Source: Gemmatimonadota bacterium
GTDB taxonomy: Bacteria; Gemmatimonadota; Gemmatimonadetes; Longimicrobiales; Gaopeijiaceae
Length of the DNA: 64,000 nt
Direction: 5' to 3'
NCBI GenBank assembly: GCA_028874985.1
Contig: JAPPGI010000058.1
Span: 25,673-89,672 of the forward strand
A program made the translations under genes and the position numbers. Below the pieces are notes generated by a model. The model did no database searches, was not told where the DNA came from, and saw only the letters and a list, made by a program, of their open reading frames with translations. Numbering within the stretch: position 1 is the first letter of the stretch; every line of letters begins with the position of its first letter. Positions 13,307 through 15,338 of this stretch are shown here, one piece after another.

Positions 13307-13390
13307 TGCCGGGGGCGGGACTCGAACCCGCATGGGACTGCTCCCGGGGGATTTTAAGTCCCCTGTGTATACCGATTTCACCACCCCGGC
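13307..13390 (-). tRNA. tRNA-Leu(TAA)
   Basis: The minus strand folds as an 84-nt class II tRNA. The acceptor stem GCCGGGG pairs fully with CCCCGGC, followed by discriminator A. The D arm contains TGGTGAAATCGGTATACAC. The anticodon stem GGGGA/TCCCC encloses the loop CTTAAAA, giving anticodon TAA for leucine. A long variable arm (GGGAGCAGTCCC) follows, as expected for tRNA-Leu, then the T arm GCGGGTTCGAGTCCCGC. CCA is not encoded; TGT follows the discriminator base. Confidence 0.97.
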
Positions 13391-13521: not shown

Positions 13522-15063
13522 TCACTTCTTCAAGCAGATCAGGATCACCCCACCGGCGGCCTCGTCTCCGTAGAGCGCTACGGCCGCAGCACCCTTGATC
13601 ACCTCTAATCTCTCGATGCCCTTGAGATGCGGCCACGGCGTTGGATCCGGCCACGGCGCTGCATTGCCGTCGTCGTCCAGTGCGTTCCCGTGCATTGTGA
13701 CCCGGACGCCTTCGATGATCAGGAGGGGCAAGGGTGGCGACTCAGCCATCCCCGAGAACTTGCCCCCCCACAGATTGTCCCGGTCGGACTGCTTCGGACT
13801 TTCGGCCACGGCTTCGACCATCTCCGCCACCGAGGGCCGGCCCCGCGTGAAGATCCGGATGGCGCCGTTGGCACCCTCGTCGCCGTAGATCTCCCGGGAC
13901 TTCGCACCATTGATCACTTCGACGCGATCGACCACCCCTTCCCTCCTGAGGCCGCTCTCCGACCAGAGCCGGACCGATTCGGGCAGGTCTTCATAGCGCG
14001 CGACAGGCACGTCGTCCACGAACACGAGCGGAGCCGGGTCCGAGACGAACCATTCGGCCAGATAGCCGTCGTAGGAGCCCTGGGTCCATCCGGAAGGTTT
14101 GCCCCGGGGCTCCGGGGCCTGAACCTCGAACGCCTCGTCGATCGCGTCGCCGATTTCCGTCGGCAACCGCACGTCGCACGCCGTCACCAGTGCGCCCACC
14201 GCCACGCAGGCGAGAATGGCCGCGCGGCCCGCACCCAGCTTCTCTTGCTTCTCACTCATCGTCTTCAATCTCCTTTCAAGCAGGCTCCTGGATTTCCCCA
14301 TCGCGGGGACGAATCCCCACCAGCCACGGGACCGGGTTCCCGCGTTCAGGAGGACCGTGCCGTAGTCGGCGACTCCGATCCCCGACGCCAGGACCCGTTC
14401 ATCGCAGTCCATTTCCACCGCGGCGCGAAGCCGCCGGCACATCCACCAGATCGCCGGACTCCATGGGAACACCGCCGCGGCGAGGCCGCCATAGAGCAGC
14501 GCGAGATGGTCCCGGGCACGCGCATGTTCCTCCTCGTGCCGGATGATCGCGTCCCGGACACCCGGCTCAAGCTCCGACACCCATGCGGGGACGACCACCT
14601 TCGCTCTGGTGACGCCGACCAAGGCCGGACCGAAGCGGCGGGAGACGTAGACCGGCGTTCCGGCCACCCCTGTGCGCTCCCAGCGGCGGCGCCTCCAGCC
14701 CATGACCAGCAGCACGCCACCGACAACGAGCATGGCCGTCAGGGACGCGGTGCCCCATGCAAGAGCCGCAATCCTGCTCGGATTCACGCCCCCGGGAACG
14801 GAAAGGGCCGGAGTCACGCTCCGGGCGTCCGCCACAGGTGCTCCGCTGACCAGCGACACGACGGCCGTCGTGGCCTCCAGCACCGGGGGAGCGACCGGCG
14901 CGCGCGTCCTTCCGGCCAGAGGGACTGCCACCGCCAGGGTCAACGCCGCGAGCCAGGCGAACCGGCGCGGCCATCCCGCGGAGACCGCCAACCGCTCCAG
15001 CGCCCATCCGCCAATCGCGACGATCCCGCCGACCAGCGCCGCATACGGAATCCAGGCAATCAT
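13522..15063 (-). CDS. M56 (BlaR1-type) membrane protease with two C-terminal TonB-plug-like modules
   Basis: The 513-residue protein starts with membrane segments and a gluzincin domain: PVYVSRRFGPALVG, the HExxH-type motif IRHEEEHARARDHL near residue 182, and VEMDCDERVL downstream supplying a likely third ligand. M56 proteases such as BlaR1 and MecR1 are inner membrane proteins that cleave a BlaI-type repressor. Here the C-terminal half is not a penicillin sensor. It carries two copies of the end of a TonB receptor plug: LVFVDDVPVARYEDLP...VEVINGAK...YGDEGANGAIRIFTRG, then LLIIEGVRV...LEVIKGAAAVALYGDEAAGGVILI at the very end. The ATG at 15063 has a GGGGAG site about 10 bp upstream. No BlaI-like repressor gene lies next to it, so its target is unknown. 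Confidence 0.85.
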   Translation of the reverse strand: MIAWIPYAALVGGIVAIGGWALERLAVSAGWPRRFAWLAALTLAVAVPLAGRTRAPVAPPVLEATTAVVSLVSGAPVADARSVTPALSVPGGVNPSRIAALAWGTASLTAMLVVGGVLLVMGWRRRRWERTGVAGTPVYVSRRFGPALVGVTRAKVVVPAWVSELEPGVRDAIIRHEEEHARARDHLALLYGGLAAAVFPWSPAIWWMCRRLRAAVEMDCDERVLASGIGVADYGTVLLNAGTRSRGWWGFVPAMGKSRSLLERRLKTMSEKQEKLGAGRAAILACVAVGALVTACDVRLPTEIGDAIDEAFEVQAPEPRGKPSGWTQGSYDGYLAEWFVSDPAPLVFVDDVPVARYEDLPESVRLWSESGLRREGVVDRVEVINGAKSREIYGDEGANGAIRIFTRGRPSVAEMVEAVAESPKQSDRDNLWGGKFSGMAESPPLPLLIIEGVRVTMHGNALDDDGNAAPWPDPTPWPHLKGIERLEVIKGAAAVALYGDEAAGGVILICLKK

Positions 15064-15277
15064 GCCCGCGTCTCCCCCCTTTGCCACAGCACGCTCACGA
15101 GGTTCGGCAGTCGGTCAATAAAGCCCCGCGAGTACCGAGAGCGGCGGTCATCCGCTTTTCCCTCCATTCACCCTGGCGTTCTTGCTTGTTCAGCTGGTCC
15201 CCGCAGGTATTACCCCGCCGGTTCACGAAAGTTCTCGTACATGGATACGGTACTACGGTAGGGGAGCAGGTGCGAAT

Positions 15278-15290
15278 TTGTCAACGACAA
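15278..15290. promoter_or_regulatory. Short perfect inverted repeat upstream of the M56 gene
   Basis: TTGTC-AAC-GACAA is a perfect 5+3+5 inverted repeat, 215 bp upstream of the M56 protease start, in the 275-bp gap between it and the arginase end. It lies beside the AT-richer stretch of this gap. It could be an operator for the missing repressor or chance; there is no further support. Confidence 0.2.
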
Positions 15291-15338
15291 TCTTCGTAAA
15301 CGGTCTCCGTCGCAGATGGCCGGAGGGCGGTATTGGGA

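Follow-up and report, generated by a model that had tools for sequence, protein, structure and literature searches.

An M56 protease-receptor gene with two half-plug modules

The window, that is, the whole 64,000-nt stretch of Gemmatimonadota DNA analyzed here, carries on its minus strand a gene for an M56 protease-receptor that lies in a single intact frame of 513 codons. The gene and the main parts of its product are as follows.

13522..15063, minus strand: M56 protease-receptor gene with two C-terminal half-plugs (513 aa, ATG at 15063)
14266..14631, minus strand: Peptidase_M56 domain, residues 145-266
14524-14538, minus strand: HEEEH, residues 176-180 (catalytic residues invariant in homologues)
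14413-14415, minus strand: E217 (invariant in 17 homologues)
13846..14040, minus strand: half-plug 1, about residues 342-406 (family profile, AlphaFold2)
13531..13734, minus strand: half-plug 2, about residues 444-511 (Pfam, NCBIfam, family profile, AlphaFold2)

A sequence-only reading of this DNA had proposed an M56 signalling protease with an HExxH-type motif, and the results agreed with it. The Peptidase_M56 domain scored 50.6 bits against a Pfam cut-off of 31, and in an alignment with 17 close homologues, the HEEEH motif was followed by an invariant E217-x-D-C-D, in which E217 would, by analogy, be the downstream Glu zinc ligand. In a Foldseek search, the full AlphaFold2 model matched the BlaR1 structures 8ext, 8exs, and 8exr with a probability of 1.0, starting from a low-confidence model: the full-length prediction averaged a pLDDT of 51 and a second one, made for the sensor part, 63; values between the modules fell below 50, and the half-plug modules were mostly above 70 in the second model. 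A Pfam search of the 513-aa protein gave no penicillin-binding sensor domain; the half-plugs stand in its place. A conserved W-G-F/L lies at 14308-14319 in the window (residues ~249-252), ~45 residues before the lipobox described below. Relative to the signal-peptidase site, its position is about that of BlaR1 autocleavage, making a site near residue 251 a possible autocleavage site. A tRNA-Leu gene (anticodon TAA, 13307-13390) is found on the same strand, just 3' of the M56-plug gene.

The same reading had placed two plug modules behind the protease. The plug origin of the extracytoplasmic part held up, but the modules turned out to be half-plugs rather than whole plugs. The Pfam Plug domain matched residues 444-506 with 31.1 bits (cut-off 23.9), and the match covered only profile positions 56-107 of 107, which is the C-terminal half of a plug; half-plug 1 had no Pfam match of its own. 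NCBIfam gave a SusC/RagA plug signature in two stretches (1.7e-13). When a 20-member profile of the sensor part was compared with the PDB, each copy separately matched TonB-receptor plugs, with i-Evalues of 2.4e-6 and 3.5e-6 for the two copies against 5fr8. The AlphaFold2 model displayed a beta-beta-alpha-beta-alpha-beta order in half-plug 1 and, less clearly, in half-plug 2. Foldseek searches with the sensor model returned the plugs of Cir, SusC, and BtuB, the leading matches having probabilities of 0.85-1.0 and weak E-values (best, 0.017). The structure prediction that had been proposed for the C-terminal part thus produced a plug-like pattern, from a model of modest confidence. Whole plugs with a TonB box were dropped as an interpretation, since the C-terminal plug half alone is matched, twice, and no TonB-box region was. 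There is no beta-barrel in the 513 aa, and the matches to receptor families in Pfam and NCBIfam are confined to the plug part. As tested, the half-plug motif was absent from the other open frames of the window.

A family of related genes in Gemmatimonadota

A homologue (E <= 1e-8) was found in 178 of the 295 genomes of the class, and the relatives named below are Gemmatimonadota metagenome-assembled genomes unless another phylum is given. Within the same and the neighbouring genus, blaI usually lies directly 5' of the M56-plug gene, often with further tandem copies after it. The genome containing the window has eight M56 matches, two of which are fragments; two truncated or disrupted M56 genes were noted at G000:C126:84135-84293 and C103:22672-22995. 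A paralogue on contig C202 has the same architecture, 56% identity, and a blaI gene immediately upstream. In fused genes, the sensor part evolves faster than the protease (dN/dS of 0.39-0.66 vs 0.21-0.43), and some paralogues in the same operons carry unrelated-looking domains after the common lipobox. In L078 (6988-13854), L079, and L081, several M56-plug paralogues in tandem share a single blaI with a protease-less lipoprotein gene; adjacent members of these arrays differ in the domain that follows the lipobox, as though the sensors were diversifying.

A search for the architecture, which the sequence-only reading had taken to be new, gave a divided answer. It is not unique, as many close homologues bear half-plugs beside blaI and an M56 protein of the phylum Bacteroidota (L201) has one too; however, no assigned function was found in the literature searched. 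L201 shares the receptor layout with a single C-terminal half-plug, and L003, from the genome of the window, shares it with a C-terminus that looks TonB-like by eye and an adjacent BlaI, but neither has the lipobox. The literature searched gave no function for M56 proteins of these two types, no paper joining M56 with a TonB-dependent receptor plug, and no paper joining BlaR1 with a lipobox, nor any functional account of such proteins.

A proposed internal start site and a predicted lipoprotein signal peptide in the last transmembrane helix

The region between the protease and the half-plugs contains four further features.

14269..14277, minus strand: internal Shine-Dalgarno (SD) sequence GAAAGGAGA, inside codons E263 R264 R265 (codon conservation; 16S match)
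14257..14259, minus strand: in-frame ATG within the gene (Met269), a proposed second start (Met retained in 60 of 67 homologues)
14179..14259, minus strand: TM4, residues 269-295, a predicted embedded lipoprotein signal peptide MSEKQEKLGAGRAAILACVAVGALVTA (family alignment; stand-alone copies in relatives)
14176..14178, minus strand: lipobox Cys296, then Asp297 (Cys in 58 of 67 homologues, followed by D/E in 55 of the 58)

The codons leading up to Met269 read GAA AGG AGA TTG AAG ACG ATG, so that an SD sequence stands at a normal distance from the ATG within the peptide LERRLKTM. The 3' end of the 16S rRNA of this genome is the canonical ACCTCCTTT, and the M56 gene of the L076 operon has an SD of identical form at an identical distance from its start (CGGAGGGTTTGACGC-ATG). 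We then compared codons among 67 homologues. The Arg265 codon was AGR (AGA or AGG) in 85% of them, compared with 41% for the next conserved Arg column and at most 12% for all the others; Glu263 was encoded by GAA in 77%, with other Glu columns at 42% or lower. Although the sequences are related, the codon tests compare columns within the same genes; the Arg and Glu columns share one tree, and the contrast between them is hard to attribute to common descent. Of the internal ATGs of a gene, that of Met269 had the strongest SD in 44 of 60 cases, against 10.8 expected, and its anti-SD energy was -7.7 kcal/mol, compared with -4.4 kcal/mol for all internal ATGs. An initial count in 52 genes pointed the same way, and its control RR pair scored 1/37. 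One exception was L070, with CTG in place of the ATG. Judged from these codon patterns, the internal SD is selected at the nucleotide level.

The sequence after the ATG has the order expected of a lipoprotein signal peptide, with an n-region, an h-region, and a lipobox (MSEKQEKLGAGRAAILACVAVGALVTAC-D) behind a start codon with its own SD. In the family, the last transmembrane helix takes the form LERRLKT-M-SEKxxKL-[hydrophobic]-(V/I/A)-A-C-D-x-P-x-P-T. Met269, Cys296, Asp297, Pro301, and Thr302 were invariant in the 17 close homologues. Among the 67 distinct class-wide M56 genes, 58 have the lipobox Cys, with Ala at the residue before it in 56. L116 and L127 are exceptions, having an SD-like sequence without the lipobox Cys. 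In E. coli, an Asp at position +2 of a lipoprotein favours retention in the inner membrane.

The start site and signal peptide also occur without the protease. Five relatives (L077 to L081) contain open frames with an M56 remnant starting ~18 residues before the Met269 equivalent, about the point at which the W-G-F/L motif lies; these frames have the same SD and ATG and continue as the signal peptide and two half-plugs. L089, L063, and L090, from a second genus, encode a lipoprotein of 131-132 aa with one half-plug 3' of the M56 gene; these frames are open as well and have that SD and ATG. In this genus, the cassette consists only of blaI, the M56-plug gene, and the lipoprotein gene. The dN/dS of the stand-alone genes was 0.44-1.1, the upper value being reached in one pair, which indicates that they evolve fast and that some may be decaying.

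Since the helix anchoring the plug part is a predicted lipoprotein signal peptide and has a ribosome-binding site of its own, this part is probably made as a separate lipoprotein, either in addition to the full-length protein or in its place. We weighed this against a single product, in which only the full-length BlaR1-like protein is made, conservation of the Cys reflects its place in TM4, and a pause before the last transmembrane helix accounts for the SD-like codons. SD-like pauses are reported before the second transmembrane segment in E. coli membrane proteins (PMC4359368), other M56 proteins have I, L, or M at the position of Met269, and L116 and L127 retain the SD without the Cys. However, a single product does not account for the ATG that 60 of 67 homologues have at SD distance, for the lipobox with its A at -1 and D/E after the Cys, or for the protease-less genes that retain just the start site and signal peptide. 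We therefore regard a single product as unlikely.

The lipoprotein could also arise by a signal peptidase II cut of the full-length chain at Cys296, uncoupling the sensor from the protease as SpsB does for BlaR1, with the internal SD being secondary. TM4 runs from inside to outside, like a prolipoprotein signal, and in S. aureus BlaR1 the cut by signal peptidase I (SPase I) falls at the topologically equivalent position (PMC9834060). Such sites are also present in several Bacteroidota M56 proteins: TM4 ends in a lipobox in L178, L182, L187, L190, L192, L195, and L196, which have other C-termini, and in an SPase-I-like A-x-A site in L197, L200, and L202. By inspection, these Bacteroidota proteins lack a strong SD, suggesting that the helix may have signal-peptide character in a broader set of proteins than have the internal start. 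Cleavage as the main route accounts for the lipobox but does not explain the selection on the SD at the codon level, and we consider it quite improbable.

A blaI relic and an operator pair shared with the C202 operon

The leader of the gene contains the following features.

15083..15151, minus strand: blaI relic, ATGACC ... GAGCGTGCTGTGGC, left from the 5' end of the deleted repressor gene (aligned with the C202 operon and with L074/L075)
15284..15298, minus strand: operator 1, TACGAAGATTGTCGT (palindromic; overlaps the -35 box TTGACA at 15279-15284)
15255..15260, minus strand: probable -10 box TACCGT (from its aligned position in the operons of relatives)
15225..15239, minus strand: operator 2, TACGAGAACTTTCGT (palindromic; 59 bp downstream of operator 1, past the probable -10)

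The relic corresponds to the first ~70 nt of blaI and lies between the operators and the ATG of the gene. In an orthologue with 82% identity from another genome (L074), ATGACCGGCAAGCGACAGAAGCGGGAACCGAGCGGCATCACCGGC...GTGCTGCGGCG is still readable and aligns with the beginning of intact blaI, after which the sequence passes abruptly into the M56 gene. The relic in the window is the same but more eroded. Judged from this relic and the alignments, the window gene is what remains of a duplicated BlaI-M56 cassette after the operon lost its repressor gene by deletion. The earlier statement that no BlaI gene is adjacent thus remains true for intact genes.

The same dual TACGAN6TCGT layout precedes the blaI-M56-plug operon on contig C202. 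In the 4.25-Mb genome, operator pairs were present only at C183:40897-40970 (window gene) and C202:24118-24191; genome-wide, 17 matches to TACGAN6TCGT were listed, with two overlapping spots counted on both strands, and these formed pairs at the two loci only. The 20-nt site spanning operator 1 and the -35 box (TACGAAGATTGTCGTTGACA) had no further match in the genome with up to 3 mismatches, so neither exact operator pairs nor this site pointed to other regulon members there. Across 23 genomes of the genus, 18 operator pairs were found in 16 genomes, compared with 0 for a reversed control pattern. By position, they lie before blaI-M56 operons, before blaI-less M56 copies, or before blaI operons that begin with an amidohydrolase lipoprotein gene.

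Each of the five blaI genes in the genome has an M56 gene as its neighbour, and of the full-length M56 genes only the window gene has no blaI next to it. The assembly is a draft of 230 contigs with 95% completeness, and additional blaI genes or targets may have escaped it. The four blaI genes other than that of C202, each with its own M56 neighbour, lack the TACGAN6TCGT pair. None of the five is an orphan BlaI-type repressor of the kind that the sequence-only reading had proposed to look for; the operators single out the C202 blaI. The view that the substrate could not be named because no BlaI was adjacent was dropped on the strength of the operator pair and the relic. Because the pair is found only at the window gene and the C202 operon, C202 BlaI, acting in trans, is the likely partner and substrate of the window M56 protein. 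By analogy with BlaR1, the M56 protein would cleave this BlaI, which is predicted from the operators to bind at both promoters.

We also considered a TRZ/ATZ-family amidohydrolase as a universal target. An amidohydrolase lipoprotein gene of this family is syntenic with blaI of the C202 type (L081:4415-5863, L167:10428-11891, and L168:5340-6641). In several relatives the operator pair precedes the amidohydrolase gene, and L168/L169 have the amidohydrolase-blaI pair without an adjacent M56 gene. In the genome of the window, however, the operators lie between the amidohydrolase gene and blaI, so this target is not general, and it was rejected.

Loss of blaI might have left a decaying, non-functional duplicate. 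Besides the deletion itself, the orthologue in G006 (C1:2927371-2928135; 80% identity over residues 187-442), which has an operator pair of its own and neighbours a blaI operon, is a broken copy with TGA codons in its frame. Against decay, the frame in the window is open over 513 codons, the dN/dS of the protease is 0.39 relative to the 82% orthologue in G187, itself blaI-less and intact, and the catalytic residues, both operators, the promoter, the internal SD, and the lipobox are all retained. Decay is therefore very improbable.

A model with two products from one gene

The reading that we favor, and hold to be reasonably probable from the sequence evidence, is an autoregulated BlaI circuit in which a single gene gives rise both to a BlaR1-like protease-receptor and to a free half-plug lipoprotein. 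BlaI encoded on C202 would bind and repress both promoters, with operator 1 covering the -35 box and operator 2 lying past the -10. The full-length product would be a BlaR1-like protease with both termini outside (N-out/C-out). A change of state in its periplasmic half-plug part would lead the protease to cleave C202 BlaI, and both loci would be derepressed. As the sequence-only reading had suggested, that part may sense receptor state or TonB. Translation would also begin at Met269, and the resulting lipoprotein would start at Cys296-Asp297 and contain both half-plugs; signal peptidase II could free the same lipoprotein from the full-length chain. In the periplasm, it might act as a partner, decoy, or signal carrier for the receptor. 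Because no other operator-bearing gene was found in the genome and the second-genus cassette consists only of blaI, M56-plug, and lipoprotein genes, the half-plug lipoprotein may itself be the main regulated output. The broader proposal, that this is a BlaR1-family gene with two signalling proteins in one frame and that such genes are a common Gemmatimonadota design, repeatedly duplicated and trimmed to protease-less plug lipoproteins under one BlaI switch, is in our judgment slightly on the probable side.

Comparison with known systems

In-frame internal SD and ATG sequences that give a C-terminal product are known in bacterial genes such as arcB and cheA. The product here would differ in being a lipoprotein, with a transmembrane helix of the parent protein as its signal peptide, and we know of no other internal product of this kind. 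The BlaR1-type receptor itself is known, but its combination with a half-plug sensor, an embedded lipoprotein with its own ribosome-binding site, and a repressor in trans is undescribed in the literature searched.

With the plugs of TonB-dependent receptors (PF07715; SusC/RagA, CirA, and BtuB), the modules share the C-terminal half of the plug fold and the signature D-G-V...I-E-x-(I/V)-E-V-x-K-G...Y-G-x-x-A-x-G-V-I. Unlike those receptors, the M56-plug gene encodes neither a barrel nor the N-terminal plug half, and its plug halves are in tandem, as part of a predicted membrane-tethered protein or periplasmic lipoprotein. The family ties a BlaR1-type signalling protease to the TonB-receptor plug fold and offers an exact candidate operator and repressor. 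Most of what is known about BlaR1-type receptors concerns beta-lactam sensing, and no signal has been assigned to their many relatives in uncultured phyla; operators such as these can pair a receptor gene that lacks an adjacent blaI with its repressor.

BlaR1/MecR1 with BlaI/MecI (S. aureus and B. licheniformis; PDB 8exr-8ext) share with this system an M56 protease with HExxH between transmembrane helices, a C-terminal extracytoplasmic sensor, a BlaI-family partner, repressor sites over their own promoter (predicted here), and a last transmembrane helix ending at a signal-peptidase-like site. Unlike in BlaR1/MecR1, half-plugs replace the penicillin-binding sensor, a lipobox for signal peptidase II replaces a site of the SPase I type, an internal SD-ATG is conserved, blaI is in trans, the operator is TACGAN6TCGT, and no lactamase or mecA-like target was found. 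S. aureus BlaR1 cleaves BlaI directly, and the signal peptidase SpsB sheds its sensor at the end of the last transmembrane helix, at Gly331 (PMC9834060). The M56-plug family suggests that the last transmembrane helix of such receptors has a second role as a lipoprotein signal peptide, one that is preceded by a separate start site; if so, the sensor would be a separate or separable protein, which fits the shedding of the S. aureus BlaR1 sensor by SpsB.
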